Shown: positions 35,954 through 64,000 of the stretch, in pieces
Layout of the letters: every line of letters begins with the position of its first letter
Numbering within the stretch: the stretch's first letter is position 1
Program-made: the position numbers and the translations under genes
The notes under the pieces: generated by a model
What the model saw: the letters and a program-made list of their open reading frames with translations, nothing else
What the model was told of the DNA's origin: nothing
The model's database searches: none
Source of the DNA: a virus
Direction: 5' to 3' (one strand)
DNA length: 64,000 nt
Virus record (IMG/VR): IMGVR_UViG_3300022752_005671
Coordinates: 123,070 to 187,069 of that record

Positions 35954-36280
35954 ATGAAAATAAAAGTAAAAGATCTTAAAAGATTAATCAGAGAAAGTTA
36001 TGCGCGCGAAATTCCTCAATATGTTGTTGATGAAATTTACGTCGCAGCTTCAAGATTAGATCCAAAAAAAGCTGGTAAATATTGTAAAGATCAGTTAGAA
36101 CATTATTTTAAGATGCATATTAATTCTACTTCTTCAAACCCAGCTGATATGAGAGCCAAGATCATTAAAATGCATAATGTTCTATCAAACATGGAAGAAG
36201 AGATTAAAGAATTAAAAAACGTTAAAGAAGAATTGAAAGAAATTATTGATCAAAACATTAGACGTTTCTTGTTCATTTAA
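35954..36280 (+). CDS. Leader-family helical protein
   Basis: 108 residues. The N-terminus KIKVKDLKRLIRESYARE is the shared leader (Leu-Lys-x-Leu-Ile-x-Glu). The rest is predicted helical, and the last third is a coiled coil rich in Glu/Lys (EEIKELKNVKEELKEIID). No enzymatic motif. It lies 12 bases after the RNR gene. Confidence 0.65.
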   Translation: MKIKVKDLKRLIRESYAREIPQYVVDEIYVAASRLDPKKAGKYCKDQLEHYFKMHINSTSSNPADMRAKIIKMHNVLSNMEEEIKELKNVKEELKEIIDQNIRRFLFI

Positions 36281-36321
36281 TTCTTGTGTTCAATCAAAAT
36301 AGTACATAGTAATATAGCCTC

Positions 36322-36981
36322 ATGCCTTCTCAACCCAATAAAGTTGAACTAATTGGTTATTACGGTTCTGATGAAACTCATGCTCTTTCTGCTTGGACTT
36401 CAACGTCAAGAGATTTGACTGAGGATAAGAAAGAAAGAATTCCAAAGCTCCTAAAGATGTTGGCTGAAAATTCTCATGAAACTCCCTTCGAAAAGAGTTC
36501 ACTGCATTTTTTGGTTACATCTGACGTGAGCGCCCACATCCACCTCCTCAAACATCGAATCGGCGTTTCAATCAACGCCGAATCTGCGCGATACAAGGAA
36601 CTAAAGGAAGACAAGTATTATGTTCCCACGGATTGGCCAGCGGAAGAAAAAGAGCTCTACATCGAACACATGGAATCCAGTCTACAGAAGTACCACTCAA
36701 CGTTGGAGAGGCTGGTTCAAAAGGGGATGAGTAGAAAGCGCGCCAAAGAATCTGCACGTCTCTACCTTCCTTATGGAAATCAGATCACGGCTGATGTTAT
36801 GTTTAATTTCCGTAGTTTTGTTCATTTTCTAAGGTTAAGATATTCTGAACATGCTCAAGTTGAAATTAGAGACATTGCAAAACAAATGTTGGATTTAGTT
36901 CATTCAACTGGATCTTTTAATCATACGATGGAAGCATTTGGATTGACGGTTGAAGGAAACCTGAGAGGGCCTTTCACATGA
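36322..36981 (+). CDS. thyX: Flavin-dependent thymidylate synthase
   Basis: 219 residues. Makes dTMP from dUMP using FAD and methylene-tetrahydrofolate. The ThyX motif is present as KHRIGVSINAESARY (about residues 76-90), with the first Arg of the consensus RHR replaced by Lys. Other family parts are HETPFEKSSLHFLV near residue 53 and FNFRSFVHFLRLRYSEHAQ near the C-terminus. The gene overlaps the following kinase by ATGA. A ThyA-fold enzyme also occurs at 57704, so ThyX is probably the true dTMP source. Confidence 0.93.
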   Translation: MPSQPNKVELIGYYGSDETHALSAWTSTSRDLTEDKKERIPKLLKMLAENSHETPFEKSSLHFLVTSDVSAHIHLLKHRIGVSINAESARYKELKEDKYYVPTDWPAEEKELYIEHMESSLQKYHSTLERLVQKGMSRKRAKESARLYLPYGNQITADVMFNFRSFVHFLRLRYSEHAQVEIRDIAKQMLDLVHSTGSFNHTMEAFGLTVEGNLRGPFT

Positions 36982-37571
36982 GTAAGATAATCGTAATTGA
37001 AGGTCCAGATAGAGTGGGTAAACAGACTCAAACTCGTCTATTAAAAAGAAAACTTGGAGAACGAGGATTTTCTTCAATTGTTATTGAAGTACCAATTAAA
37101 TCTGCAGTAACATATCCAATCATTTATTGGATGCTTCAAAATGGCACGGCAAAAAAGTTTCCAAAAATCTTTCAATGGTTTCAATACATGAATAGAAAGA
37201 TTTTTCAAATGTTTAAATTGCCTCGTCTTGAGGAGGATTACGATTGCATCATAATGGATAGATGGAGTTTATCTACCATCGTATATGGTGCAGCAGAAGG
37301 TGTTCCTCTAGAATATACGATAAAGTTGGCTAGAAAATTGAGAGAACCTGACCACACGATCATTCTTCATGGAAATTCTTACGTTCATGAAGCAGAAGAT
37401 TCATATGAAGCAGATTCTGAACTTCAAAAAAATGTTAGAATCGAGTATTCAAAATGGGCAGCGAACAATCCAAATACGACCACACTTATTGATTGTAGAC
37501 AGGAAAAAAAAGTAATTTCAAAGAAAATTAGAGATGTTTTATATAAAAAAGGAATTTTAGAAAGACCTTAA
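36978..37571 (+). CDS. Thymidylate/deoxynucleotide kinase
   Basis: 197 residues. P-loop kinase that phosphorylates dTMP or another dNMP. The P-loop is EGPDRVGKQTQ near the N-terminus, the DRW motif (IIMDRWSLST) follows at about residue 93, and an Arg-rich lid-like KLARKLREPDH occurs at about 115. It is translationally coupled to thyX, which fits a dTMP-to-dTDP step. It differs clearly from the second P-loop kinase at 52430, so the two may have different dNMP substrates. Confidence 0.85.
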   Translation: MSKIIVIEGPDRVGKQTQTRLLKRKLGERGFSSIVIEVPIKSAVTYPIIYWMLQNGTAKKFPKIFQWFQYMNRKIFQMFKLPRLEEDYDCIIMDRWSLSTIVYGAAEGVPLEYTIKLARKLREPDHTIILHGNSYVHEAEDSYEADSELQKNVRIEYSKWAANNPNTTTLIDCRQEKKVISKKIRDVLYKKGILERP

Positions 37572-37625
37572 TTTTATAATACAAATAGTTTTTTTTATGT
37601 ATGATTTAACTAATTTAGAGGTGTT

Positions 37626-37889
37626 ATGAACTATAAAATTTCTGATTCAGTTGCGATGCGATTCATTCAAATCTTTCAAGAGGCAATTCTTATGGGAGTT
37701 GATGGCGCAGACCTTATGCGACAAGTTCGTCTAACTGTAGATGAGTCGACTCCTGACACATTAACTTTGCATCCCGAATATGAGAAGATGGTCGAAGCTC
37801 AACACAAGAAATATCTAGAAGATGCAGAAAAGCTAAAGTCTCAATCTGAAACTTTACCTAACGTTCCAAAGTTAATTTTTGAAAATTAA
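37626..37889 (+). CDS. Hypothetical conserved-type small protein
   Basis: 87 residues with a good ribosome site (TTAGAGGTGTT). Not recognised with confidence. It has a helical N-terminal part (DSVAMRFIQIFQEAILMGVDG), then a VDESTPDTLTLHPEYEKM segment and a Lys/Glu-rich helix. Similar small proteins occur between nucleotide-metabolism genes of T4-like phages, but no function can be assigned. Confidence 0.65.
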   Translation: MNYKISDSVAMRFIQIFQEAILMGVDGADLMRQVRLTVDESTPDTLTLHPEYEKMVEAQHKKYLEDAEKLKSQSETLPNVPKLIFEN

Positions 37890-37896
37890 TGTAAAG

Positions 37897-37971
37897 ATGA
37901 AATTTGCGTTATTTGTGATATTGTTTTCTATCATCATCATTATGAAGGCTTCAAACACGAAGGACTATTGA
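37897..37971 (+). CDS. Possible 24-residue membrane peptide
   Basis: Short frame MKFALFVILFSIIIIMKASN... with one hydrophobic segment of about 15 residues. Its TGA stop overlaps the ATG of the next gene (TGATG), which would couple translation. The upstream TAAAG is a poor ribosome site. Could be a true small membrane protein or chance. Confidence 0.3.
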   Translation: MKFALFVILFSIIIIMKASNTKDY

Positions 37972-38336
37972 TGGATAAGCTTCAAGAAATGTGGGATCAA
38001 CAAAAACAATTTATGGATTTGTTGCGAGAGCAACGCGACTTTCCTCCATTTCCAGTTGATCCAACCTCTAAGTCTGGTCAAAAACTTCTTAAAGGAATTA
38101 CGCATGAATGTATGCATGAACTTTTTGAAGCGAACCAGACATTAAAGAATTCAAAGGATCATCGTGCGACTGATGTAAAAGAGTTTGATAGAGAGCATTA
38201 TGTTGAAGAGCTAGTTGATGCCCTTCATTATTTTTTTGAAATTGCAATTCTTAGCGGTATAACTTTAAATGAACTTCATAATTCATACATGAAAAAAGGT
38301 AAAACTAACGTAGATAGAATTAAAAACGGATATTGA
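37971..38336 (+). CDS. All-alpha NTP pyrophosphatase (MazG/dUTPase-2/dCTPase-like)
   Basis: 121 residues. The family pattern is clear: ECMHELFEANQTLKN (metal-binding ExxxE), then HYVEELVDALHYFFE (ExxD) and a Lys-rich C-terminus YMKKGKTNVDRI. These enzymes cleave dNTPs to dNMPs; members include dimeric dUTPase and T4 dCTPase (gp56). As a trimeric dUTPase is already encoded, a dCTPase-type role that would feed dCMP to a hydroxymethylase is attractive but unproven. The start at 37971 is preceded by AAGGA. Confidence 0.8.
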   Translation: MDKLQEMWDQQKQFMDLLREQRDFPPFPVDPTSKSGQKLLKGITHECMHELFEANQTLKNSKDHRATDVKEFDREHYVEELVDALHYFFEIAILSGITLNELHNSYMKKGKTNVDRIKNGY

Positions 38337-38445
38337 TAAAAAAAATACTTTTACCCCTTTTCAAAAATTTAATGATGTTTATCATGTCTCCGTAACGATG
38401 GAATGCAACAAATCCATCGACTTTTATAAAAAAGGAGATAGAAAA

Positions 38446-38805
38446 ATGTTGACTAGATACTATGATAGTATTCGCACGCCTGTGTTTAGTTTATTTGATC
38501 CGTTTAAAGTTTTTAATGATTTTGAAACGTCAAGTCTTCAATCTAGATTAGACTCTATTGATGAAGAAGGAATTAAAGTTGAACTTCCAGGTGTTAAAGC
38601 CGCCGACGTTGACGTAACTGTAGAAGGTAGAACTTTAAAAGTTTCAGGTAAATCTAGGCACGGAAAAGAATTTAGCTATGTTTATAATTTGAGATCGACA
38701 GTAGACGAATCAGGAATTATCGCGAAACTTGAGGACGGTCTCTTGTCAATCTCTTTGCCAAAGAAAAAAGAGAGTTCTGCAAGAAAAATTCAAGTTTCTG
38801 GTTAA
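38446..38805 (+). CDS. Small heat-shock protein Hsp20
   Basis: 119 residues from ATG 38446, chosen because AAAAGGAGATAG precedes it. Alpha-crystallin domain holdase: GIKVELPGVKAADVDV (beta strands), LKVSGKSRHGKEF, and the C-terminal LEDGLLSISLPKK signature. An I-x-V tail (KIQVSG) fits the oligomerisation motif. Hsp20 genes are common in T4-like cyanophages and may protect virion assembly. It is followed by a strong terminator. Confidence 0.9.
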   Translation: MLTRYYDSIRTPVFSLFDPFKVFNDFETSSLQSRLDSIDEEGIKVELPGVKAADVDVTVEGRTLKVSGKSRHGKEFSYVYNLRSTVDESGIIAKLEDGLLSISLPKKKESSARKIQVSG

Positions 38806-38827
38806 AGGTTGTTTTTTAGTTGATGCT

Positions 38828-38862
38828 AAAGGTTCGATAAAAAATCGAGCCTTTTTGTTTTT
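38828..38862 (+). terminator. Intrinsic terminator after hsp20
   Basis: An 11-bp stem (AAAGGTTCGAT 38828-38838 with ATCGAGCCTTT 38844-38854, one G-U pair) has a 5-A loop and is followed by a T-rich tract. Confidence 0.92.
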
Positions 38863-38868
38863 GTGGCA

Positions 38869-38874
38869 TATAAT
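38869..38874 (+). promoter_or_regulatory. Possible -10 box
   Basis: A perfect TATAAT between the hsp20 terminator and the gene at 38901. No convincing -35 at 16-18 bases. Similar TATAAT boxes without a -35 precede 39489 (39451-39456) and 45589 (45565-45570), which would fit activator-dependent middle promoters. Confidence 0.35.
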
Positions 38875-38900
38875 TAATCGTATCAATTTGGAGACATATT

Positions 38901-39425
38901 ATGAAAATAACTGAATCTAAGCTACGCGAAATAATCAAAGAAGAATACCTCAGAGTAACACCAGTCATGCCAGGCGAGATTATGTCTGAAGCCCGCGCGA
39001 TGTACTTGGCAGAAGAAATTGTAAATGAGGGATTTTTTGGTAATGTTTTAGCAGGAATTAAAGGAGCAATTAAAGGAGTAGGTGCAGCAGGAGCTAAAGC
39101 TGGCGAAAAAGCCGCTGGAGCTGCTTCAAGTGTTGGTGGACAGCTTGCTGCAGCTGCTCAAAAATTGACTGCTCCAATCGCTGCTGCAGGAAAAGATGCA
39201 GCCGCAGCAATCAAGGACATTAAAGATGCCGGTGTTAAAGCAGCAGCTGTTGCAGCATCAAATTCGATTAAATCTTCATTAGAAAAAGAAGTAAAAAATC
39301 AAGTCGCTTTGATTATTCAAAAAGAAGTTGCATCTGGAAAAGATGAAGCTGCTGCAAAGGCAGAAGCTGAAGCAGTCGTAGCAAATGCTTTAGCAGCCGC
39401 TCTTATGGGAATTGGCGGAGCTTGA
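38901..39425 (+). CDS. Leader-family protein with Ala-rich amphipathic body
   Basis: 174 residues. The N-terminus KITESKLREIIKEEYLR is a clear copy of the shared leader. After EEIVNEGFFGNV the body is an almost continuous Ala/Gly/Lys-rich helix (residues about 55-130), reminiscent of histone H1-like or apolipoprotein-like sequences, then a helix with Glu/Lys and an Ala-rich C-terminus. The text VNEGFF matches VREGFF in the 46644 protein, so leader and body share a junction. A DNA-associated or membrane-associated virion protein is possible; function unknown. Confidence 0.7.
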   Translation: MKITESKLREIIKEEYLRVTPVMPGEIMSEARAMYLAEEIVNEGFFGNVLAGIKGAIKGVGAAGAKAGEKAAGAASSVGGQLAAAAQKLTAPIAAAGKDAAAAIKDIKDAGVKAAAVAASNSIKSSLEKEVKNQVALIIQKEVASGKDEAAAKAEAEAVVANALAAALMGIGGA

Positions 39426-39488
39426 TTAACCAATTTGAACTTTATCCTTGTATAATACTTTAACATTATATAAAATGTTGAATGTTAT

Positions 39489-39926
39489 ATGACTGAAGAT
39501 GAAGATAAAGTTCTTTGCGAAAAATATCCAAAGATATTCAAAAACAGAAACGGATCCATACAAGAAACCTGCATGGCATGGGGTTTTGAATGTGGATCCG
39601 GATGGTTTGATATAATCGATATTTTATGTCATGAAATCCAGAACCATGTAGACTGGAAATCAAAAGATTTACCGGAAGAAGAAAAAGAATTTTTTCAAGT
39701 AGTAGCCACTCAGGTTAAAGAGAAGTTTGGCACTCTTCGATTCTATTATGGAGGTGGAGATGATGTCGTCGAAGGCATGGTTTCGATGGCTGAGTCAATG
39801 TCACATCGAATTTGCGAAGAATGTGGATGTCCTGGAGATCCTCGAAAGGGATCATGGATAAAAACTCTTTGCGACAAGTGCGATGACGAAAGAAAGACAA
39901 AGACAGGGGTGATTCGATGCGTTTAG
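39489..39926 (+). CDS. Hypothetical zinc-finger phage protein
   Basis: 145 residues. Contains GSGWFDIIDILCHEI near residue 36, QVKEKFGTLRFYY near 74, and a CEECGCPGD...W.KTLCDKC zinc-binding C-terminus. This arrangement recurs in uncharacterised phage and bacterial proteins; function unknown. It overlaps the following phosphoesterase gene by 10 bases, so the two are co-translated. Confidence 0.75.
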   Translation: MTEDEDKVLCEKYPKIFKNRNGSIQETCMAWGFECGSGWFDIIDILCHEIQNHVDWKSKDLPEEEKEFFQVVATQVKEKFGTLRFYYGGGDDVVEGMVSMAESMSHRICEECGCPGDPRKGSWIKTLCDKCDDERKTKTGVIRCV

Positions 39927-40750
39927 CTTGGATGACCGATATTCATCTTGACATGGCTGGAGATATTTTTAATAAAATATTGTCAATGTCAAGATCCAGT
40001 CATGAGGCTGATGCATTATTGATCACTGGCGACATATCAGTTTCTAATACGCTAACGCAGCATTTGTCTGCTCTTGAAATTGGTTTTAATAAACCAATTT
40101 ATTTTGTTCTTGGAAATCACGACTATTATGGGTCAAATATAATGACCGTAAGAAAAAATGTTGTGAACTATTGTAACTCTTCATCTTTTTTAAGATATAT
40201 GACTTCTATTCCTTACGTCAAGTTGGAAGAAGGAACATACTTGATCGGACATGACGGATGGTATGACGCTCAAAATGGAAATCCGTACAGCGATTCTTTG
40301 TTGATGAATGATTGGATTCAAATTTCTGATTACAATGCAGCGTTAAGATCTTCATTTGGTGGAAAGACTTTAAATAAAAACGTTATCATTAATATTTCAC
40401 AAAAGCTTGCACAATTATCTGCAAATCATGTTGCAAATTCTATTAAGTCTATTATTAAAGAAAGTGAACACATCATCGTAATGACGCATGTTCCTCCATT
40501 TAAAGAGACTTTTAATGCATCTGAAAAATATAAAGGTATGTCTTCTACGGAAATTATGCCGTGGTATACATCTAAGATCATGGGAGATACTTTATTAGCT
40601 GCAGCAAAAACATATCCGCACGTCAAGTTTACAGTATTATCTGGACACGTTCATAGTTATTATGACAACGATTTGCTAAATAACTTAAACGTTAAAGTCG
40701 GAAAAGCCGTTTACGGAAATCCTCAGTTAGCAAGTTTGATATCGGTTTAA
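39917..40750 (+). CDS. Calcineurin-like metallophosphoesterase
   Basis: 277 residues. All binuclear-metal motifs are visible in order: TDIHLD (residue 7 onward), ITGDIS (about 36), GNHDYYG (about 66), MTHVPP (about 190) and SGHVHSYYD (about 240). It hydrolyses phosphodiester or phosphomonoester bonds; the substrate is unknown (nucleotide, RNA end or protein). Translationally coupled to the zinc-finger gene before it. Confidence 0.88.
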   Translation: MRLAWMTDIHLDMAGDIFNKILSMSRSSHEADALLITGDISVSNTLTQHLSALEIGFNKPIYFVLGNHDYYGSNIMTVRKNVVNYCNSSSFLRYMTSIPYVKLEEGTYLIGHDGWYDAQNGNPYSDSLLMNDWIQISDYNAALRSSFGGKTLNKNVIINISQKLAQLSANHVANSIKSIIKESEHIIVMTHVPPFKETFNASEKYKGMSSTEIMPWYTSKIMGDTLLAAAKTYPHVKFTVLSGHVHSYYDNDLLNNLNVKVGKAVYGNPQLASLISV

Positions 40751-40767
40751 TTATTAGGAGGCGACCC

Positions 40768-41298
40768 ATGAAAAGATCGCTGCTTTTAAATTCAAATGGT
40801 GAACCTCTTCAGTTTATTACTGAAGTTAGGGCAATTAAACTTATGTTAAGTGGTCGAGCTGATCCTCAAACAGGATCTACTGGAGAACTTTCATACTGGA
40901 ATGATGAGTATCAAACTTGTTCAAGTAGTTTCAAATTGCCAGCTATTTTAAGATTGAAAAATTATATCGTTCGTAAAATCGACAGAAAGCCTGCTCGTTT
41001 TCAAAAAAAAGTATTATTCAATAGAGATTCATGGTGCTGTCAATATTGTGGTATAGAATTAAGCTATTCTTCCGTGACTGTAGATCATGTAATTCCTGTA
41101 TGTAAAGGTGGCCCAACAACCTGGTTCAACTGCGTTACTGCATGTAAAAATTGCAATAGAAGAAAAGGTGGAAAAACCCTTGAAGAAACCGGTATGCGCC
41201 TTTCAAAAAGACCTGTTGAACCATCAGCATTACATTTTTGGGATTTATCTAAGTCAACTGCGTGGCACGAAGATTGGTCTATATTCGTCAATACATAG
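40768..41298 (+). CDS. HNH endonuclease
   Basis: 176 residues, with a good AGGAGGCGA ribosome site. The HNH core is CQYCG, then VTVDHVIPVCKGGPTTWFNC, then CKNCNRRKGG, giving the His-Asn-His/Asn pattern plus two zinc CxxC knuckles. The N-terminus RSLLLNSNGEPLQFITEVRAI is like the family of stand-alone HNH proteins found in bacteria and phages. It could be a homing, packaging or host-DNA-degrading nuclease. Confidence 0.85.
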   Translation: MKRSLLLNSNGEPLQFITEVRAIKLMLSGRADPQTGSTGELSYWNDEYQTCSSSFKLPAILRLKNYIVRKIDRKPARFQKKVLFNRDSWCCQYCGIELSYSSVTVDHVIPVCKGGPTTWFNCVTACKNCNRRKGGKTLEETGMRLSKRPVEPSALHFWDLSKSTAWHEDWSIFVNT

Positions 41299-41362
41299 TT
41301 ATTAACTTACATTTACAAAAACTGCGTTTGAACAGAATAGTTATGCTAGGAGTTTTTTACAC

Positions 41363-42415
41363 ATGCGTTTGAAATTATCTGATCTACAGAAAGTTGTCAA
41401 AGAAACCTTGCAAGAAAAGAGCCATACAGAAGCGTTTTGCAATGAGATTAAGAAAGTTTTTGGTCCTTCTGTCGTAGTCAATGACAATCTAGAATCTTTG
41501 GCTGAAGCCGCGAACGAGCGTTTAGATGTTATTGAATATATGGGGAGAGAGACCGTAAACTTTTCTCGTAAAGTTGCATTGGCTATGTCAACGCATGAAT
41601 CTCCTGAAGTAAGAAAATTAGTCGCAAGAGTTCTTCCAGAAAATGCATCTACAATTTTGCTTTTTGATCCTGCTGCTAACGTTCGTCTTGCTGCAGCAAA
41701 AAAAGCAAAGAAAGAAGTTTTAGAAGAAGCAGTAAAGAAGTTTCCAAAAGATACTGCTCTTCAAGATTTATTCGAAGAAAAGAAAAAAGAAAAAGTTTCT
41801 GCTGTTGAAGCAGCTGCTGGACATGACAATGAAGACATGTTGAGTGATAATTGGTATGAAGGTGTAGCCCGTAAATTAATTCAAGATTATGCTAGATCTT
41901 TAGATACAACATGGCAAACATCTGCAGTTAAACAATTTTGCTCATCAGTAAGAGCTACGACAAGAGTTCCAGTTGATCCAATAAAATTAATGGACAAAAT
42001 GTCAGAACTATTAAAGAAACATGATGATGCAAGAGAAGAATATCTCGAGTTGAAAGAAAATGCTCAATTTCAAACGACTATTTCTCAAGATGTAGTTGAT
42101 GATATGATGTGCGAAAGTTTATCGCCACAATTGTTCATAGAACGTTGTGATGATGTTTTTGGTATAAAGTATTCTGAGCTTCCTAGAGCAATTATGAAAT
42201 TTAAGATTGAAGAAGGAACGAAGGTAAGAAAAATACCAGTTTCTTGTACACTTCCTCATGGCAAAGCGCCTAGAAGAATTGACGAGTTAGCTTTAGATTC
42301 TTATGTAAAACATTGGAACGATAAACAAAAGCTGAACGGTGAGCCTTTTGTTATTAGCTGGACTTCTCATCCTGATTCGGCAAACAAAGTTACATTTAAA
42401 GTTGAGCTTAAATAA
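41363..42415 (+). CDS. Leader-family protein, 350 residues
   Basis: The N-terminus RLKLSDLQKVVKETLQEK fits the shared leader. Residues about 70-130 resemble helical HEAT-like or leucine-rich-variant repeats (STHESPEVRKLVARVLPENA..., FDPAANVRLAAAKKAKKE). A Lys/Glu hinge follows and then an unrelated alpha/beta C-terminal region (about residues 160-350). Not otherwise recognised. It overlaps the Dps-like gene by one base (TAATG), linking the two in translation. Confidence 0.65.
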   Translation: MRLKLSDLQKVVKETLQEKSHTEAFCNEIKKVFGPSVVVNDNLESLAEAANERLDVIEYMGRETVNFSRKVALAMSTHESPEVRKLVARVLPENASTILLFDPAANVRLAAAKKAKKEVLEEAVKKFPKDTALQDLFEEKKKEKVSAVEAAAGHDNEDMLSDNWYEGVARKLIQDYARSLDTTWQTSAVKQFCSSVRATTRVPVDPIKLMDKMSELLKKHDDAREEYLELKENAQFQTTISQDVVDDMMCESLSPQLFIERCDDVFGIKYSELPRAIMKFKIEEGTKVRKIPVSCTLPHGKAPRRIDELALDSYVKHWNDKQKLNGEPFVISWTSHPDSANKVTFKVELK

Positions 42416-42975
42416 TGAAAAAAAAGAAATTATCAGAATCCATGGAAATGGTTCTTACAGTTGAACCAAACTTAACAGTAATGACAGATAATATGATTGC
42501 TGAATGGGGAGGTTCTTCATATGCTCCTCTTTCTGTCATTTTAGTGCATCTCAAGTATTTGTATGCGCTTCATCAAAATCATCATTGGACTGCAATGGGA
42601 GATCCTTATTATGGAGATCATTTGTTGTTTCAAAGACTATATGGAAATATAGTTCAAGAAATTGATGGAATCGCTGAAAAAGCAATTGGATTAGGCTCTA
42701 TATCAAACGTAGATTTACAACTTGTAAATTCTCAAGTTCTTAAGCTTATTTGTGGCCAAGGATCCGTGACAATGATTCCTCAATCAACTGACCTTGCGAA
42801 GAAGTCATTGATGGCAGAATTGAATTTTATTAAAGTCATTGATCACGTTATGGTATGTCTTAAAGAGCTTGGTCTTCTCACACACGGACTTTCAAATATG
42901 CTCGAAGGTATTGCCGACGTACACGAAAGTCATGTTTATTTATTAAAGCAAAGGATTTCAAAATCTTTAATCTGA
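42415..42975 (+). CDS. Dps-like ferritin-fold protein
   Basis: 186 residues. Dps proteins bind DNA and store iron, protecting DNA from peroxide. The helix LKYLYALHQNHHWTAMGD and the following YGNIVQEIDGIAEKAIGLG match the Dps ferroxidase region. Putative ligands H57, H69, D84 and E88 have the same spacing (12, 15, 4) as H51, H63, D78 and E82 of E. coli Dps. The C-terminal helix NMLEGIADVHESHVYLLKQRI also fits. It lies between two leader-family genes and may be part of the virion or act in the infected cell. Confidence 0.78.
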   Translation: MKKKKLSESMEMVLTVEPNLTVMTDNMIAEWGGSSYAPLSVILVHLKYLYALHQNHHWTAMGDPYYGDHLLFQRLYGNIVQEIDGIAEKAIGLGSISNVDLQLVNSQVLKLICGQGSVTMIPQSTDLAKKSLMAELNFIKVIDHVMVCLKELGLLTHGLSNMLEGIADVHESHVYLLKQRISKSLI

Positions 42976-42988
42976 AAGAAAATATTAT

Positions 42989-43528
42989 ATGAAGTTAACA
43001 GCTACAAAATTAAAGCAAATTATAGCAGAAGAAATAAAGGCTGCTGTTCAACAAAAGAAAACCATTTCAGAAGCCATGTCTCCTATCACTTCTGATGAAG
43101 TTGAAGCTTGGAAAAGCGGCGATTGGGGATATGTTTCTGGTGATCAAGATAGAATGATGGATGACGGCGACGATCCAGAGAGATTTTTACATGGAGAAGA
43201 TCCTCATGATGATGAAGGATCAATGGTAAAATCTCGTTTGTATTCAATGAAACAAATGAGTGCCGACCTCTGCAGCTTATTAAATCCAGAAGACCAGCTT
43301 CCTGGTTGGGTTCAAGATCATATTTCAGTTGCTCATGAAAATATGCAACAAGTTCATGGATATCTAATGGGAAAACAACATGCCGTTGAACATGAAATGT
43401 CTTCTGGCGACGTTGTTGAATCCAAGAGCCGATTGAATGAATCTCACAATCGAATCACAAAAGAAGAAATGAATGCTTGGATGCGTGGTGATTGGGGATT
43501 TAATTCCGAAGATTCTTCAAACGATTAA
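42989..43528 (+). CDS. Leader-family acidic protein with WGDWG-type repeats
   Basis: 179 residues. The leader is KLTATKLKQIIAEEIKAAV. Two copies of a 20-residue unit, ITSDEVEAWKSGDWGYVSGD (about 32-51) and ITKEEMNAWMRGDWGFNSED (about 154-173), flank a helical middle with LPGWVQDHISVAHENMQQVHGYLMG, a segment type seen in head-related phage proteins. Acidic overall. Function unknown; the leader and the head-like segment suggest a capsid-interior protein. Confidence 0.68.
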   Translation: MKLTATKLKQIIAEEIKAAVQQKKTISEAMSPITSDEVEAWKSGDWGYVSGDQDRMMDDGDDPERFLHGEDPHDDEGSMVKSRLYSMKQMSADLCSLLNPEDQLPGWVQDHISVAHENMQQVHGYLMGKQHAVEHEMSSGDVVESKSRLNESHNRITKEEMNAWMRGDWGFNSEDSSND

Positions 43529-43569
43529 TATTGTTTGTAAATTCAATAATATAAAGATATTATCAAAGC

Positions 43570-44649
43570 ATGCAACGAACGCTTTGTTTTGATGATGTTC
43601 TTTTGGTTCCCCAATATTCAGAGATTGAGTCTAGAAAAAATGTTGACGTGTCTGTTTCGGGATTTGATGATCTTGATGCAGCGCTGACAAAATTGCATTC
43701 GACTCTAAAATGCCCTATCGTCGGATCACCGATGGATACGGTCATTAGTCCTGAAGTAGCTAGCGTTTTGGAAGACTTTGGCGGATTCGGGGTTTTACAT
43801 CGATATTGCACAATTCAAGATTCAGTAAAAATGTTCAAGGAAACGCTTGAAAAGTGTCCTGGACATCCTTTGCCGAATATCATGGTTGCAATTGGTGCGA
43901 CGGGAGATTATCTTGAGCGTGCTACTGCTTTATACGAATCTGGATGTAGAGCATTTTGCATTGATGTTGCACATGGCCATCATTCATCTGTAAAAAACGC
44001 ATTAAAAGAATTACGTCTTAAATTTGGAGATGAAGTTCATTTAATGTCAGGCAACGTTGCAACTCTAGATGCATTTAATGATCTTGCTGATTGGGGCTCT
44101 AACTCCATAAGAGTTGGTGTGGGTGGTGGAAGCATGTGTTCAACTAGAATTCGAACTGGTCATGGTATTCCAACTTTACAATCTTTGATGGATTGTGCAA
44201 AATCGGATCGTGACGTTTTTATTGTAGCAGATGGTGGAATTAGAAATTCAGGGGATGCTGTTAAAGCTTTGGCTGCAGGTGCAGATATGATTATGCTAGG
44301 ATCTATTTTGGCAGGACATGATGAATGTCCTGGCGATCTTGTAGATTCTCATGGATTGACGTATAAGTCATCGCAACCTATTGGCGTTCCACTTTTTAAG
44401 AAATTTAGAGGAATGGCTTCACGAGAAGCTCAACTTCAATGGAGAGGTAGAGTTTCTGTCGTCGAGGGAGAAAGTACTATGATTCCTTACAAAGGATCTG
44501 TAGCAAACACATTGACAGATTTGCTTGAAGGAATTAAATCAGGAATATCTTATTCAGGTGCTAGAACGATTAGAGAACTTAGAGCAAAGGCTAAGTTTGT
44601 CACAGTGACAGCACAAGGGGTCCGAGAAAATGGACCCCATGGTAAATGA
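43570..44649 (+). CDS. IMP dehydrogenase/GMP reductase family protein (no CBS domain)
   Basis: 359 residues with a TIM-barrel of the IMPDH/GMPR family. The catalytic cysteine is C190 in GGGSMCSTR, preceded by the phosphate-binding VGVGGG, and [21 protein letters not shown] is the second phosphate loop. The N-terminus [14 protein letters not shown] is canonical. CBS domains are missing, making it GMPR-sized; substrate (IMP or GMP) cannot be decided. It would shift the purine pool during infection. IMPDH is another known split-intein host in environmental phages, but this gene is intact. Confidence 0.88.
44617..44638 (+). other. GC-rich hairpin at 3' end of IMPDH/GMPR gene
   Basis: GGGGTCC (44617-44623) and GGACCCC (44632-44638) form a 7-bp stem with an 8-base loop just inside the stop codon. 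A weaker GATTTA/TAAATC pair around a T run lies at 44654-44676 between the convergent genes. Together they could end transcription from either side. Confidence 0.45.
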
Positions 44650-44675
44650 ATCTGATTTAGAAGTATTTTTTTAAA

Positions 44676-45221
44676 TCACTTTTCGCTCGGCCATTTGCCT
44701 GTTGCTTTATGCATCATCCATGCCGCGGCCGCAGCTGGATCTTCTGCCCAGCTAGAAACTTTTTTCATTTTTTGAGCAAACGTTTTTGTTCCTTTAAGAA
44801 TCTTTTTTGCAGTCTCTTTTGAAGGACCTTTATTTTCTGCCTCACTCATTCCGCATTCACAAGCGGCTTCGCTCATTCCACATTCACCGCAGGTAGAACC
44901 TTCTTCAACTTCATTTAATCCGCAAGAACAAGGCGCATCAAGTTGAACCGGCATCATTCCGCATGTTGGACATACGTTCTTCATATCACATTGGCATTGA
45001 GAAGCTGGAAGTCCGCAACCTTCGCAAGTTTTTTCTTGTTCAGCTTCTGGACATCCACATTTTCCATCAATTGACATCATTCCGCAGGACGGACAAATAT
45101 CTCCTAGATCATCTTCATGCATGTCTCTAACCCCGACAGCGCCAACGGTTGTAATTCCAGGAACTTTTCCAATAGGTTCACCGAACATTTCTAATATTGT
45201 TTTTTCTAGATTATTTTTCAT
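44676..45221 (-). CDS. Cys-rich multi-zinc-ribbon protein
   Basis: 181 residues from the internal Met at 45221; a longer start at 45257 would overlap the divergent gene. Four tandem modules of the form CxxCGx(6-9)CxC are visible (CPSCGMMSIDGKCGC, CEGCGLPASQCQC, CPTCGMMPVQLDAPCSC, CGECGMSEAACEC), which could bind zinc or act as a metallothionein-like sink. The C-terminus is a basic helical region. One of only three - strand genes in the window. Function unknown; the Dps-like and SOD-like genes give a metal/redox context. Confidence 0.7.
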   Translation of the reverse strand: MKNNLEKTILEMFGEPIGKVPGITTVGAVGVRDMHEDDLGDICPSCGMMSIDGKCGCPEAEQEKTCEGCGLPASQCQCDMKNVCPTCGMMPVQLDAPCSCGLNEVEEGSTCGECGMSEAACECGMSEAENKGPSKETAKKILKGTKTFAQKMKKVSSWAEDPAAAAAWMMHKATGKWPSEK

Positions 45222-45256
45222 GGAATTAAGTATCATCAATACATAGATTATACTCA

Positions 45257-45562
45257 ATGGAATCTATTATTGTTACCACGAACGTGTTGTTGTATGGCAC
45301 GGCTTTTATTCTAGGCTTTATTGTAGGTAGAATAACTGGAAAGCCTGATTTAAGCGACCCAAGAATAGATCCGAAGGGTTCATTTTTTAAACCTGAGATT
45401 CGACAAAAAAAAGCAGTAGAGATTGATGAGAAGAAATTTGTTACGACAGTCTCGACTGATTCTTTGAAGAAAAAAGGAAAAGATTTGGGAACCCAAACTA
45501 TCGTCGATGATGACGTAAGCGCTTCTGCTTCGAAATTGGCGATGTTAAAGAAAAACAAATAG
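45257..45562 (+). CDS. Single-span membrane protein
   Basis: 101 residues. The N-terminus has one transmembrane helix (VLLYGTAFILGFIVGRITG) followed by a basic/polar cytoplasmic tail of about 75 residues. No signal-peptide cleavage site. It is 26 bases upstream of the actin-like gene, so it could be a membrane anchor for that filament; this is inferred only from proximity. Confidence 0.65.
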   Translation: MESIIVTTNVLLYGTAFILGFIVGRITGKPDLSDPRIDPKGSFFKPEIRQKKAVEIDEKKFVTTVSTDSLKKKGKDLGTQTIVDDDVSASASKLAMLKKNK

Positions 45563-45588
45563 TGTATAATTCAATTAGGAGATAAGAC

Positions 45589-46593
45589 ATGGCTAAAGGA
45601 TTAGATGTAGGAACATCATTCATCGTTCTCGCAGAAGAAGGAACGAAAGGGAAAGTTACATATAAAGATTTTCGAGATGCATTTTATGTCATCAAGCCTA
45701 CGACCCCCATTGCTACGAAAATGATTGAAAAGGGTCTGGCAGGAAAAGTATTCGTCAAGGACGCTGACGGTTCTTTCATCATCCTTGGTAAGGATGCCAT
45801 TGAGAAGGCCGTAGAGAGAAATGATTCTGCAAAGCGTCCCATGTATAAGGGAGTTGTATCATCAAAGGAGAAGGATGCACGTAGAATTTTGACCTATATC
45901 CTTAAAGAAGTTGCTGGTACACCTTCTGAGGCAGGAGAAAAATTGGTATTTTGCGTTCCAGCGCAGCCTGTAGATCAGGAAGATGAGGACTTCGACGTTG
46001 GATACCATGAGGACGTTATAGTCAAACTCCTCACCGAAGTTGGTTATTCTGCGAGAGCTATCAATGAAGCAGAAGCTCTTTGCTACTCTGAATTAGAAAA
46101 GGATGACTACACCGGCGTCGCTCTATCATGGGGAGCAGGCATGGTCAACGTTTGCGTTATGTTGAATGGTGAACCTGTCGTTACATTCTCAACAACGAAA
46201 TCAGGAGATTGGGTAGATCGTATGGCTGCTGTCGCAACAGGCGAAGCTGATTCTATCGTTCAGGCAGAAAAGGAACAAGGCGACTTTACGGTTGGCCAAC
46301 CGAACGATAATCAGGTTCTAGCAGCTGTTGCTTCTTACTATGATCGTCTTATTGACTACACAACGAAGCAACTTGCCTCAGCAATGGATGGGCATAAGTC
46401 GATTCCAAAGTTTAAAGATCCTCTTCCGGTGGTTGTTGCTGGTGGAACTTCAAAAGCCAAGGGATTCGTAGACCTATTCGCAAAGAAACTGGAAGAGAAT
46501 GGCTTCCCTCTACCGGTCAAGGAAGTCCGCCATGCAGCAGACCCGCTGCACGCCGTCGCCCGTGGATGCCTCATCGCTGCACAAATTATGTGA
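45589..46593 (+). CDS. Actin-like ATPase (ParM/MreB/Hsp70-superfamily fold)
   Basis: 334 residues with an AGGAGATAA ribosome site. The five-motif actin fold can be traced: phosphate-1 GLDVGTSFIVLA at the N-terminus, connect-1 region INEAEALCYSE (about 150), phosphate-2 LSWGAGMVNVCVML (about 180), and the adenosine motif VVVAGGTSKAKGF (about 285). Codons are of the well-expressed type. It may form filaments for DNA or virion positioning, as in plasmid ParM or phage-encoded cytoskeletons. Polymerisation is not shown by sequence. Confidence 0.8.
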   Translation: MAKGLDVGTSFIVLAEEGTKGKVTYKDFRDAFYVIKPTTPIATKMIEKGLAGKVFVKDADGSFIILGKDAIEKAVERNDSAKRPMYKGVVSSKEKDARRILTYILKEVAGTPSEAGEKLVFCVPAQPVDQEDEDFDVGYHEDVIVKLLTEVGYSARAINEAEALCYSELEKDDYTGVALSWGAGMVNVCVMLNGEPVVTFSTTKSGDWVDRMAAVATGEADSIVQAEKEQGDFTVGQPNDNQVLAAVASYYDRLIDYTTKQLASAMDGHKSIPKFKDPLPVVVAGGTSKAKGFVDLFAKKLEENGFPLPVKEVRHAADPLHAVARGCLIAAQIM

Positions 46594-46643
46594 CTCGATA
46601 TAAAAATGCTTTTTTTTGTAATACTTAAAATACGTGAGGTTTT

Positions 46644-47369
46644 ATGAAGATAACAACGAGCCAGCTTCGAAGAATCATTAGAGAAGAAGTTGAACAAGAG
46701 AAGTTAAGAAGAACAATCAGAGAATCAATTCGTCAAGAGCTGGTTCGTGAAGGGTTCTTTGATAGAGTAAAAGACGTATTTGGTGCCGGAGTGATGAAAG
46801 ATTTTCCTAAACTTCTTGCTGGTGTGCGAACATTGACATCAACTGCAGCCACGCATGGTCCAAATTTGGAAAACCCTCAATATGCTTCTGATTTCTTAGG
46901 AAAAGCAATACATGAATCCGAGTTCGGTGTCGTAAACGTACCCGGAAACAAAGGAAAGGGTTTTGTTCTTTCTAAGATATTCGACGACCAAGGAAATCTT
47001 ATAGACAAGGATTTAAACAAAAAATTGCTTGATTTAGGGAAGCAATATGAAAATAAAAAACTAGACAGAGAAAAATTTGAGAGAAAGGTTTATGATCTAG
47101 TCGGAATAGTTACAACAAGATGGAGCGAATTTGCAGACTTTGCAAAAGATTTGGTTGCTGCGTGTAAAGCAAAAGCAGACAAGCAAAAAAAAGATTCTGA
47201 TGATGCATATGAACAAGGTCAGAAGGAAAAAGCTGCAAGATCAGCAGAAGATCGTGATCTCCGCATGAAAGTTGCTAGGAAGCTTGGTTTAGACCAGGAT
47301 GACCCGAGAGTCGATCAAGAAATGAACCGCATCCGCGGCCGCGTGGATCGCCCGTGGACCGAAGCGTAG
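46644..47369 (+). CDS. Leader-family protein with EGFF junction
   Basis: 241 residues. The leader KITTSQLRRIIREEVEQEK is followed by a second similar stretch (LRRTIRESIRQELV) and REGFFDRV, matching NEGFFGNV in the 38901 protein. The rest is mixed helical, with a highly charged Lys/Arg/Glu C-terminal part (about 165-241). Function unknown. A strong terminator follows. Confidence 0.68.
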   Translation: MKITTSQLRRIIREEVEQEKLRRTIRESIRQELVREGFFDRVKDVFGAGVMKDFPKLLAGVRTLTSTAATHGPNLENPQYASDFLGKAIHESEFGVVNVPGNKGKGFVLSKIFDDQGNLIDKDLNKKLLDLGKQYENKKLDREKFERKVYDLVGIVTTRWSEFADFAKDLVAACKAKADKQKKDSDDAYEQGQKEKAARSAEDRDLRMKVARKLGLDQDDPRVDQEMNRIRGRVDRPWTEA

Positions 47370-59787: not shown

Positions 59788-60159
59788 ATGAAGCAAAAGC
59801 TTACTGGAAATTACATTATCAATCTTATGAGAGAAGAATGGCAAAAAAAAGTTAATTCTTTACTCTCAGAAACTCCCTCGCAAAAGAAAAAGCCACGAGG
59901 GTTAAAGATGCAAGTCGACGTCGATGGAGATGGAAGTAAAGAGAACGTGATTGATGTTGGTTTGAAGGTACAAAAAAAGATGCCAGATGACAAACGCATA
60001 AATGTTAAAGGTGACCCCACTTCTGGATTAGTTTATACTGTAGTTTCAGTGAACGATCAGGATAAAACGATTACTTTAAGCAGACCAGATTCTGGTAACG
60101 GCGAGAAAACAATAGTTATAACAAAACAAGCTTTTGAGAACGAATATCAAAGAAAGTGA
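59788..60159 (+). CDS. Leader-like small beta-rich protein
   Basis: 123 residues. The N-terminus KQKLTGNYIINLMREEWQKK is a divergent form of the shared leader. The body is beta-rich, and GLVYTVVSVNDQDKTITLSRPD near residue 75-97 resembles a KOW/SH3-like strand pattern. Function unknown. It overlaps nothing but stands 10 bases before the SOD-like gene. Confidence 0.6.
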   Translation: MKQKLTGNYIINLMREEWQKKVNSLLSETPSQKKKPRGLKMQVDVDGDGSKENVIDVGLKVQKKMPDDKRINVKGDPTSGLVYTVVSVNDQDKTITLSRPDSGNGEKTIVITKQAFENEYQRK

Positions 60160-60169
60160 TGATGCTATC

Positions 60170-60898
60170 ATGAACATTAAATCTTTAGGCGTAGACTTAG
60201 ATAATATCCTCAAGGATGCAGTAAAAAATTCAATTAAAGCACAAACTAAAGAATTGCCTACTGCTGAAAAACTAGATGAAGCTTATGTTGCTGAGCCTAA
60301 GGTTTTTAAGCAAGTTTCTGAATTTTCTACTCAAAAAACAAAAGACGCACATGACACCTTATATAAAGGATATGTCGAATCTTTAAACAAAATTTCCGCA
60401 GAGCTAGATTCTGCAGATCGAAATGCAGCTGATTCTAAACATTCTCAATATCGTTCTTTAAAACTCGATGAAGTTTATAATTTAAATGCGACATGGCTTC
60501 ATGAGCTATATTTTGCAAATGCATTTGATCCTCACTCTGAAATCACCATGGATTCATTATCCTATATGAGACTTGAAAGAGATTTCGGAACGTTTGAAGA
60601 TTGGCAAAAAGATTTCATGGCTTGCGCATTATCTTCAGGGAGTGGATGGGCCGTGTGCGGATATCATCTCTTTTTGCAAAGATACGTCAATACTGTAGTT
60701 AGCCACCACAGCGGAGACGTCATGCTTGGATTATATCCAGTTATCGTTGTTGACATGTGGGAACATGCTTATTATAGAGATTACTTGAATGACAAAAAGA
60801 GTCATCTTGTGGCAAGAATGAGAGAATTTGATTGGGATGTGATTGAGGAAAGAGTAAAGAAAGCTGAGTTAATTTCTCAAGCCATAAAGGTGAAGTGA
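60170..60898 (+). CDS. Iron/manganese superoxide dismutase-like protein
   Basis: 242 residues from ATG 60170. The C-terminal domain is SOD-like: WQKDFMACALSSGSGWAVC, then VDMWEHAYYRDYLNDKK and DWDVIEERV. The four metal ligands are present at H61 (AHDTLYKGYV), H111 (WLHELYF), D195 and H199 (DMWEHAYY), with spacing close to that of Fe/Mn SODs (D to H exactly 4). The second His of the helix-1 HxxxH is Tyr, as seen in divergent members. No signal peptide. The first 40 residues are extra and helical. It would dismutate superoxide; activity is inferred from the ligands. Confidence 0.78.
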   Translation: MNIKSLGVDLDNILKDAVKNSIKAQTKELPTAEKLDEAYVAEPKVFKQVSEFSTQKTKDAHDTLYKGYVESLNKISAELDSADRNAADSKHSQYRSLKLDEVYNLNATWLHELYFANAFDPHSEITMDSLSYMRLERDFGTFEDWQKDFMACALSSGSGWAVCGYHLFLQRYVNTVVSHHSGDVMLGLYPVIVVDMWEHAYYRDYLNDKKSHLVARMREFDWDVIEERVKKAELISQAIKVK

Positions 60899-61446
60899 TG
60901 AATCGTAAATTAAACGTATCACAATTAAAGAAGATTATTCGTGAGCAAGTAAAATTATTGGTTGAAGGAGACAAGAAAGAATTAAAAGATTCTTTAGACC
61001 AACAAGTCGATGATCTTCTTATATCTTATGAATCAGAAGCAAAAACTAAAAAAAATGAAGGGTTAGATTTCAGGATGATGACCCGCAGGTTTTTATCATC
61101 TTCAACAACACAATTGCTTGAAGCAGACGAAGATAAAGGATCTGATAAGGAAAAAGAAGAAAAAAAGAAATTGAAGATGGAAGATATCGACGTCGAGGAA
61201 TTTGCTGGCAGCGTTTCAAGGTTGATAGACAATTACGACTCTTTATTAGAAGTTAGAAATACGTTGGCAAGAAGAGCTGTTAATTTTTTGATTGAAAATT
61301 ATGAGCAAGATGTTGTTAATGAATTTAAGAACGTTTTAGAAGATTCTTATGATATTACAATTGGAAAATCAAAAATAGAAATTGAAGATGAAAAATTTGA
61401 AGCACCACTTGCAGATAGAGCTGGAGGTTCAGGAGGTGGTGCTTGA
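60898..61446 (+). CDS. Leader-family acidic protein
   Basis: 182 residues. The leader is NRKLNVSQLKKIIREQVKLL. A charged helical region follows with Lys/Glu-rich EDKGSDKEKEEKKKLK (about residue 78-95), then a helical MEDIDVEEFAGSVSRL section and a Gly-rich C-terminus. ATG overlaps the SOD stop (TGATG), so both are probably translated together. Function unknown. Confidence 0.65.
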   Translation: MNRKLNVSQLKKIIREQVKLLVEGDKKELKDSLDQQVDDLLISYESEAKTKKNEGLDFRMMTRRFLSSSTTQLLEADEDKGSDKEKEEKKKLKMEDIDVEEFAGSVSRLIDNYDSLLEVRNTLARRAVNFLIENYEQDVVNEFKNVLEDSYDITIGKSKIEIEDEKFEAPLADRAGGSGGGA

Positions 61447-61745
61447 TTAGAACTGATATTTTGCATGATAAAAAATGTATTCATATTAAATTGACAAAAG
61501 ACGTTCATTTAAAATTAAGAGAAAAGTTATTTCAATATCAATTGTCGATGCAATCTATCTTTGACGAATTTGCAAGGCTTGTAATTGAAGATGAAAAATC
61601 TGCAATTAAAGTTTTAGAAGATCTTGCATTAAAAAGAGCTCGTGAGCAAATTGAAAAACCTATAAAAAAGTCTACTTCATATAATCGAGATAGCATAAAT
61701 GAACTAGATCATAATACGTTGTATAATATGATCAACGATGACTGA
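61443..61745 (+). CDS. Small protein, possible ribbon-helix-helix
   Basis: 100 residues from a TTG that overlaps the previous stop. KKCIHIKLTKDVHLKLREKL followed by a helix (SMQSIFDEFARLVIED) could be a strand-helix-helix DNA-binding fold like Arc/MetJ; the evidence is modest. The remainder is charged. Overlaps the next gene by 8 bases. Confidence 0.55.
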   Translation: MIRTDILHDKKCIHIKLTKDVHLKLREKLFQYQLSMQSIFDEFARLVIEDEKSAIKVLEDLALKRAREQIEKPIKKSTSYNRDSINELDHNTLYNMINDD

Positions 61746-62049
61746 CGAAAAAGAAACTAGCAAACCTAAGATGAAATTGTTTGACTATATTTTTGAGTCA
61801 TCGATTAAATCATCAAAAACTATCTTAAACATAGTTAATGAACTTATTTTATTATCTCAAGACGTTCGCTCTTTAAGAGACACGATTTTAACTTTATCTA
61901 AAGTTCTACAAACTCACCAAGCCATTATAGAAGATATATGTAAAGTTCTTGAAAGTGCAGCTGAACATGTAGAAAAGCAAGAACAAAAACTAGAAAATAG
62001 TTTCTCAGTTTCTTTAACTAAAGATCCAAAAAAAGATAAACCTAATTGA
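61738..62049 (+). CDS. Coiled-coil hypothetical protein
   Basis: 103 residues. Heptad-like helix from about residue 25 to 85 (ILLSQDVRSLRDTILTLSKV...), then a Lys/Asp-rich tail. No membrane segment. Third in a run of small overlapping genes leading into the membrane-protein cassette. Function unknown. Confidence 0.55.
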   Translation: MTDEKETSKPKMKLFDYIFESSIKSSKTILNIVNELILLSQDVRSLRDTILTLSKVLQTHQAIIEDICKVLESAAEHVEKQEQKLENSFSVSLTKDPKKDKPN

Positions 62050-62050
62050 T

Positions 62051-62440
62051 ATGATCTGGAATAAAATTATAAATTTAGCAAAAAAATATTGGCAATACAT
62101 TCTTTTGTTTTTTGGAGCAATTTTTACGTTTATTTTGTTTAGAAAAAAAGATTCTCCTGTTGATGATCAAACTCAGTCAAGAAAAGACAAGGATAAGCAA
62201 TTAGACGTCATTGATGATGTGAGAAAAGAAGAGAGAAAAGAGCATGATAATGCCGATAAAAAGCTAAAAGAAGGATTAGAGATTGTAGAAAAACAATATC
62301 AAGAACAAAAAAAAGAACTTGACGAAAAGAAAAAGCAAGAAGTAAAAAATGTTCTTGAAAAATATAAAGATGATCCAACAGGGCTTGCAAAAAAGTTGTC
62401 AGAGGTAACAGGATTCAAGATTATAATGCCAGATGAGTGA
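62051..62440 (+). CDS. Membrane-anchored coiled-coil protein (spanin-like topology)
   Basis: 129 residues. One N-terminal transmembrane helix (YILLFFGAIFTFILF), then a long Lys/Glu coiled coil to residue about 115. This is the topology of inner-membrane spanins, but no diagnostic motif exists. It is followed within 6 bases by a signal-peptide protein, as Rz/Rz1 pairs often are. Confidence 0.5.
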   Translation: MIWNKIINLAKKYWQYILLFFGAIFTFILFRKKDSPVDDQTQSRKDKDKQLDVIDDVRKEERKEHDNADKKLKEGLEIVEKQYQEQKKELDEKKKQEVKNVLEKYKDDPTGLAKKLSEVTGFKIIMPDE

Positions 62441-62446
62441 GAGTTT

Positions 62447-63007
62447 ATGAAAAATAAATTAATCCAATTAATTACTTTATTCTCGATAACGTTATCTTCT
62501 ATCACTTTTGCAAGTGAACGAACGATTAGTCCAGAGCCAGACGACCTAGAAGGTCCTATTACAACGACCACAATATTCCCTCCTATACCAGAAATTCCTA
62601 AATCAGAGCCAGATGTTGGTGAAGCAATCTCTCCAATGAGAAAAGGACAAATTGCTCCATTCACTGGATTGTTGTTGTCTCCTGCTGCTGTAGCATCCGT
62701 CATGACTGATTTAGAAACTAAAGACGAATTGATAAGATTAGAAGTTGAACGTGCGACTTCTAGACTTAAATTAAATCATGAACATGAAATGACTATTTTG
62801 AGAATTAGATCAGAGTCTGATTCTAAAATAGATAAATTACGAATTGAAGAACAAAGGAAAGACATCGATAGAATAGATGCTCAATTAAAAAAAGAAAGAG
62901 AGAGCAGGCCTGATCCTTTAGTTTGGGCATCAATAGGGTTGGGGGCCGGCGTCGTTTTGTCAACGTTAACTGCTGCTATAATTGCTGCTGTTTCTAACGT
63001 TAACTAA
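62447..63007 (+). CDS. Secreted/membrane protein with coiled coil (possible lysis accessory)
   Basis: 186 residues. N-terminal signal peptide (KNKLIQLITLFSITLSSITFA, cleavage likely after FA), Pro-rich stretch, the KGQIAPFTGLLLSPAAVASV motif (a pattern that recurs in phage lysis-related proteins), a long charged coiled coil (about 95-155) and a C-terminal transmembrane helix (IGLGAGVVLSTLTAAIIAAV). Together with the genes before and after it makes a plausible lysis cassette. No endolysin is seen in this window. Confidence 0.55.
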   Translation: MKNKLIQLITLFSITLSSITFASERTISPEPDDLEGPITTTTIFPPIPEIPKSEPDVGEAISPMRKGQIAPFTGLLLSPAAVASVMTDLETKDELIRLEVERATSRLKLNHEHEMTILRIRSESDSKIDKLRIEEQRKDIDRIDAQLKKERESRPDPLVWASIGLGAGVVLSTLTAAIIAAVSNVN

Positions 63008-63038
63008 TAAATAAGCTTGTCAATCATAAAGGTGAATT

Positions 63039-63437
63039 ATGCCAAGAAAAGCGCAAGAAAACAAAAAAGTTATACCAACAGAACAACCTGTCGAACAAGC
63101 AACAGAACAAGTAAAAAAAATTGAAGAAGCTAAAGATCACAAACATTCTGAAGCAAAGCATGATAAAGATGTTAAACGTGGATCTAAAGTTCCATGGTGG
63201 TGGATGAGAAATGATAAAGGCGCTCAATCTGTTTCGGTGACATTTGCTTCAATATCATTTTTAGTAACGACAGTAATTTATTTAGGATCAGCATTTGAGA
63301 AAATCGGTTCAGTTACTTTACGCCCATTCGATGTGTCTGCAGCCATGGCGTATTTCATTCCAGCATTATCATTATACTTTGGTAGAAGGCTTACTGATGC
63401 AAAGTATAATGTTTCTCAAAAAAATGACATTGCTTAA
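63039..63437 (+). CDS. Two-span membrane protein, holin-like
   Basis: 132 residues. The first about 55 residues are highly charged and soluble, then WWWM and two transmembrane helices (SVTFASISFLVTTVIYLGSAF and AAMAYFIPALSLYFG) with a short basic loop and tail. This is compatible with a class II-like holin or other small membrane protein; the long charged N-terminus is unusual for a holin. Good GGTGAATT ribosome site. Confidence 0.5.
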   Translation: MPRKAQENKKVIPTEQPVEQATEQVKKIEEAKDHKHSEAKHDKDVKRGSKVPWWWMRNDKGAQSVSVTFASISFLVTTVIYLGSAFEKIGSVTLRPFDVSAAMAYFIPALSLYFGRRLTDAKYNVSQKNDIA

Positions 63438-63458
63438 TAATATTTATCGACATTCAAC

Positions 63459-64000
63459 ATGCGTCAAGTATTAATAACAGAATCATCATTAAGAGAATTA
63501 CTAAAAGAAATGATGGATTCAGAATCCCCAATTAATGTAAATCCAGTCGTGGATCCTTCAGCTGCGGAAACAGATCCTTCAAATATAAATTTTTTGCCAT
63601 CAAATAAGGCAGAACTTATGTCTGCTCTTAGGGTTTTAGTAAATTCAATCGATGATGAAGTTGCAGCCGACATCTACGTCACTGTTCAAGACGCTATGAA
63701 AGAAAAGGAAGACGAAATGAAGAACTCAAATGTTGAAGAATCAATCCGCACTATTGTTAGAAAAATGCTATTAGAAGCACAAAATGATCTTGAAGATGAA
63801 GATGTTCCTATGCCTCCTGTGAAAAAAATACCAGCAGGGGTTCATGGTTCAGAATACATGCAAAGATTTGAAAAAGCAAAGAGCGGACTACAAAAAACTC
63901 TTTCTACTTTGAGAGACGATGAAGAATTTGTTAGCTCAGATGAACCAGAAGAAGGTCGTTCTCGCAAAAATGTAATGATGTCTGACGTCGGCGGAGCGTC
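63459..64000 (+). CDS. Leader-family protein (3' end outside window)
   Basis: At least 180 residues, open to the right edge. The leader is RQVLITESSLRELLKEMMDSE. A second leader-like helix, NVEESIRTIVRKMLLEAQ, occurs at about residue 88-105. The rest is acidic, with DDEEFVSSDEPEEG near the end. The start was chosen at ATG 63459, since no nearer upstream start is visible; no clear ribosome site. Function unknown. Confidence 0.65.
   Translation, partial: MRQVLITESSLRELLKEMMDSESPINVNPVVDPSAAETDPSNINFLPSNKAELMSALRVLVNSIDDEVAADIYVTVQDAMKEKEDEMKNSNVEESIRTIVRKMLLEAQNDLEDEDVPMPPVKKIPAGVHGSEYMQRFEKAKSGLQKTLSTLRDDEEFVSSDEPEEGRSRKNVMMSDVGGA

Follow-up and report, generated by a model that had tools for sequence, protein, structure and literature searches.

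The window analysed here, the final 64 kb of a 187-kb virus record, encodes an Fe/Mn-type superoxide dismutase (SOD) with an N-terminal leader that its cellular counterparts lack. The combination of fold, leader, conserved motif and accompanying head genes makes it probable that this is a capsid-targeted SOD, processed by an S77 protease and carried in the head, where it would dismutate superoxide for the packaged DNA and/or the new host. The features of the gene and its direct neighbours are listed in Table 1.

Table 1. Features of the SOD gene and flanking genes, in window coordinates; counts refer to 69 distinct phage homologues.
Feature	Position	Strand	Remark
Fe/Mn superoxide dismutase with N-terminal leader	60170..60898	+	242 aa, ATG start
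Leader, residues 1-37, predicted helix 10-27	60170..60280	+	absent from cellular SODs
Predicted prohead-protease site, L35-D36-E37/A38	60272..60283	+	motif in place in 69/69; MCP propeptides of this clade have a similar end
SOD domain, residues 38-242	60281..60895	+	part of the model matched by solved SODs, starting at about residue 38
Metal ligand His61	60350..60352	+	kept in 65/69
Metal ligand His111	60500..60502	+	kept in 65/69
Water-coordinating C-terminal His180 (SodFM3/4-type)	60707..60709	+	61/69; residue class from PMC10172142
Metal ligand Asp195 (Val193 at D-2)	60752..60754	+	Asp in 68/69; Val at D-2 in 67/69
Metal ligand His199	60764..60766	+	kept in 64/69
Upstream leader-type gene (MREEW...LLSE)	59788..60159	+	adjoins SOD in most related phages
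Downstream leader-type gene (LKKIIREQ...LLVE/G; DSLDQQVD family)	60898..61446	+	adjoins SOD in most related phages

The Pfam profile Sod_Fe_C (PF02777) matched the protein with 72 bits against a cut-off of 20.9 (E=4e-20), and the profile of the N-terminal hairpin, Sod_Fe_N (PF00081), gave 21 bits, which is under its cut-off of 27 (E=5e-4). The top solved relative among PDB sequences was the SOD of Aquifex pyrophilus (E=3e-30). An AF2 model computed from an alignment of 77 sequences reached a pLDDT of 91.9 and a pTM of 0.80; a single-sequence run (pLDDT 42) was set aside. In a fold search the best match of the model was the Aquifex FeSOD (PDB 1coj), with a Z score of 26.5 and an rmsd of 1.5 Å over 203 residues, and a match this close implies that the four predicted metal ligands cluster. 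An earlier note on this DNA had described a SOD-like phage protein with active-site residues and had proposed structure prediction as a check. The prediction recovered the SOD fold, and the sequence, the profile match, the alignment-based model and the fold search now all back that description. The gene encodes a real member of the Fe/Mn SOD family, and catalysis is likely. The phage protein found no SOD match in PHROGs; the only clear matches in BFVD were two SODs from uncultured Caudovirales phages.

All four ligands named earlier (H61, H111, D195 and H199) and the DMWEHAYY motif are present in the open reading frame, and the ligands are invariant in 18 close orthologues. The claim of near-standard ligand spacing holds with one reservation: the distance from the ligand His to the gateway Tyr is 7 residues, compared to 8 in the Aquifex SOD, and a gapless alignment of the two proteins shifts His61 by one residue. 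The 7-residue spacing is common to the phage SOD and its cellular relatives, and His61 is missing only in homologues that have lost other ligands too. For these reasons we argue that His61 is the ligand despite the register shift.

SodFM4 enzymes are described as having a C-terminal water-coordinating His while the C-terminal His of the HXXXHH motif is lost, and Val at D-2 has been linked mainly with Fe preference (PMC10172142). In the phage SOD the second His of HXXXHH is absent, with H61-DTL-YK in its place; this feature, His180 and Val at D-2 agree in fitting a SodFM4-like enzyme. The Aquifex FeSOD was taken as SodFM4-like from its residues. The phage SOD resembles SodFM4-type SODs, represented by the Aquifex enzyme and by relatives from Patescibacteria and Armatimonadota, in fold, the four ligands, the C-terminal His and the lack of the HXXXHH double His, whereas it differs from them by the added leader and cleavage site, by Ala/Gly/Ser at position 107, by Trp/His197 and by the replacement of the interface residue Glu198 by Gln in 20/69 homologues, a change of apparently single origin in the tree.

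The leader ends in a conserved sequence. A motif [LIV]-x-E-[AGS] was found in all 69 distinct phage homologues, the Glu always being 24 residues ahead of the ligand His61. Over these proteins the four motif positions have entropies of 0.84 (L), 2.45 (x, any of nine residues), 0.00 (E) and 1.00 bits (A/S/G), and each of the 16 positions from −18 to −3 before the Glu has at least 3.2 bits. No other column block contains the motif in more than 13/69 proteins, and by chance alone ca. 9% of proteins would be expected to match somewhere within 38 residues. The extension preceding the cut position, which is 37 residues in the window SOD, varies from 10 to 61 residues and is usually 21-42, with the qualification that one short extension among the 69 may reflect a mis-called start. 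Cellular relatives have neither leader nor motif and start at approximately the equivalent of the residue following it. In the AF2 model the leader is a helix (residues 10-27) followed by a low-confidence linker. The alignment of solved SODs with the model begins at residues 34-40, in the case of 1coj at 38, which is the predicted P1' Ala, so cleavage would leave a standard SOD. The leader of the window SOD is of the LRxIIREE type. In a related contig (L021) the SOD leader reads RELEKVIRETL...LKEAY and is of the same type as the leaders of its own neighbours. As read from the sequence, the leader-end motif is the signature of the T4 gp21 (Peptidase_S77) prohead protease.

A prohead protease of the Peptidase_S77 family is encoded in the same record (record position 101243-101878, E=7e-27). 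The record also codes for a T4-type portal protein (gp20) and for the major capsid protein (MCP) gp23, and with these three genes the phage is T4-like; by its capsid protein it is closest to uncultured, Microcystis and Flavobacterium phages. The protease was found in 20 of the 22 SOD-bearing IMG/VR contigs tested, and the two contigs without it, of 108 and 129 kb, are among the shorter ones and possibly incomplete. Furthermore, the propeptide of the MCP, a known gp21 substrate, in the clade ends in [LI][KR]E/[SAT], the slash marking the cut, with Glu in 62/62 rows. In T4, internal proteins enter the core via a capsid-targeting sequence (PMC9958956), which is processed by gp21 at sites such as ITE-6 of Alt (PMC9958956, PMC5694885). 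The phage SOD is like T4 IPI-III and Alt in having an N-terminal propeptide that ends in (L/I)xE, and in occurring with an S77 protease and T4-like head genes. It differs in that the payload is a metalloenzyme and in that the leader, 37 residues here, is longer than the T4 head-protein propeptides of 10-20 residues (PMC5694885).

The placement between two leader-family genes proposed earlier proved right, and the SOD itself is also leader-bearing. In relatives the usual cassette consists of a MREEW...LxE gene ahead of the SOD gene and an LxxLIxEE...LLxE...DSLDxQID gene behind it; the flanking leader proteins have LxE, often without A/G/S next, a point that counts against the proposed head targeting. 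Many short genes at 35954-47369 and 59788-63998 share an LRxIIREE-type N-terminal leader, often followed by LxE, and they probably represent a family of head-internal proteins. In leader-type proteins other than SOD the motif occurred at residues 12-60 in 26/57 cases, a count that can include matches within the leader core, versus 254/1571 other proteins. At residues 60-108 the numbers were 11/57 and 214/1571, which is near background. The enrichment is real but partial, and the case therefore rests on the SOD family itself.

From these features we infer packaging, cleavage, catalysis and place of action of the SOD as follows. The leader would dock the protein into the prohead core, like the capsid-targeting sequence of T4 internal proteins, and the S77 prohead protease would cut after Glu37 (LDE/A). 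The resulting SOD of standard length would stay among the packaged DNA, where it most likely dismutates superoxide, and may protect the packaged genome and/or, once ejected, the newly infected cell. A folded SOD oligomer would be wide for the tail tube, and its ejection in the folded state is therefore less likely. A location in the virion was one of the roles offered in the earlier note; it gains strong indirect support from the S77-type motif at the domain boundary in 69/69 homologues and from the S77 genes of the phages that carry them. The other role offered there, superoxide detoxification inside the infected cell, may apply as well.

If the protein instead were an ordinary auxiliary metabolic SOD acting in the cytoplasm of the infected cell, its N-terminal extension would be a species-specific tail or an oligomerization element. 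The active site is complete in most homologues, the nucleotide-metabolism genes for TK and dCMP deaminase lie upstream of the SOD gene, and Vibrio phage 2.275.O has a SOD without leader, all of which would suit such a role; that the SOD of 2.275.O is leaderless in a phage with an S77 protease also counts against the head-targeted reading. However, a mere tail is not expected to keep [LIV]xE[AGS], with x free, at the domain boundary in 69/69 proteins while the rest of the extension varies, and the cassette with leader genes also counts against this explanation, which we consider unlikely.

The preferred reading of a packaged, active SOD has also to be weighed against the SOD fold serving inside the head or core as a protein without enzymatic function, in which metal binding would be a relic or contribute to stability. 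Five homologues (L067, L074, L078, L080 and L086) lack one to four ligands but still have the SOD fold, the leader and the cleavage motif, which means that not every homologue needs catalysis. Three of them (L074, L078 and L086) carry H61R, H111R and H199G together with E180, the ligands being gone jointly with leader and cleavage motif kept. In the tree the five lie within one subclade among ligand-keeping relatives; judged by eye it suggests about three ligand losses within this subclade, whereas an automated count that gave a single origin for the ligand-lacking SODs ignores unlabelled rows. It is possible that the fold serves structurally in this subclade. For the family as a whole a non-enzymatic role appears improbable, more so than the cytoplasmic one, since His199 (64/69), His180 (61/69) and Val at D-2 (67/69) are retained and the ligands mostly vanish together, as expected if catalysis was selected for until it was given up.

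The view of phage SODs as uncommon stands for deposited phages and fails for environmental ones. By tblastn a SOD was found in 24 of 50,697 deposited phage records, none of them more than 60% identical, and several of the 24 look bacterial. The match in MW462191, labeled as a phage, was rejected as probably a bacterial contig given the bacterial genes around it. In contrast, 215 IMG/VR loci code for a SOD relative, on contigs of up to 369 kb (80 of the loci were retrieved), which extends the gene to environmental jumbo T4-like phages. In a tree of SOD domains the 69 phage SODs form one clade (support 97/95) on a long branch, apart from the SODs of PA5oct and Vibrio phage 2.275.O. The clade is separate from, and beside, Patescibacteria/Armatimonadota relatives in this tree, which was built without the reference SodFM1-5 set. 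Four SODs of 307-333 aa (L063, L076, L085 and L087) have a Pro/Ala-rich C-terminal extension and branch close to the base of the phage clade when the tree is midpoint-rooted. The SOD cassette also occurs on a 306-kb contig (L089) that was binned in a Methylococcaceae MAG and is probably a phage contig.

Virion-associated SODs have a precedent in chloroviruses. The Cu/Zn SOD A245R of PBCV-1 was reported to be packaged in the virion, and cells infected with PBCV-1 contained less superoxide than those infected with virus lacking the SOD gene (PMC7019647). Like the phage enzyme A245R is virus-encoded, and it differs by its unrelated Cu/Zn fold and its eukaryotic virus. To our knowledge, A245R has no prohead-protease leader. 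Closer in type are the SODs of the PA5oct group and of Vibrio phage 2.275.O, which are likewise Fe/Mn enzymes in S77-carrying phages, although they share only ca. 25% identity or less with the window SOD and occupy a separate tree branch. As opposed to the leaderless SOD of 2.275.O, that of PA5oct has a short leader ending in IAE/A; its sequence reads MNDSIKKYISIAE followed by A at the predicted cut. An MS note in the PA5oct SOD record is a weak hint of presence in the virion. These MS notes are no proof of location, as the soluble enzymes ribonucleotide reductase, thymidylate synthase and ligase are noted alike.

SODs were already annotated in some phages, and the head-targeting appears to be new. 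A search of open-licence papers on SOD in combination with prohead protease or virion gave no title or abstract describing a head-targeted phage SOD, and neither phages nor viruses are mentioned in the main text of a large survey of SodFM enzymes (PMC10172142). The phage SOD is a known enzyme family joined to a known packaging device. If the proposed role is correct, widespread environmental jumbo phages carry an antioxidant enzyme ready for use inside their particles, which would be the prokaryotic equivalent of the SOD that chloroviruses package, and superoxide would exert a concrete selection pressure either on the phage particles or on the earliest minutes of infection. The protein would then also be a naturally occurring enzyme payload whose head-loading tag can be read, and leader plus [LIV]xE/[AGS] would provide a rule to predict other head-internal proteins in uncultured phages.

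A Dps-family protein is encoded at window position 42415-42975 between leader-type genes (PDB Dps matches with E of about 1e-6). It starts with MKKKKLSE/S, and [LI]SES occurs near the start in 7/8 relatives. Dps consumes the H2O2 that SOD makes, and this protein may be a second packaged antioxidant. A wider proposal, which we put forward tentatively and hold to be somewhat doubtful, is that large T4-like phages package an antioxidant kit of S77-processed SOD and possibly a short-leader Dps, which would guard the DNA or be ejected, with the SOD being metal-free and structural in some lineages. The window also encodes an HSP20 small heat-shock protein (38398-38805, E=7e-12), and the SOD gene of PA5oct likewise lies near an Hsp20 gene. 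Finally, a Volactin, an archaeal-type actin homologue (PF25216, E=6e-67), is encoded at 45589-46593 of this T4-like phage.
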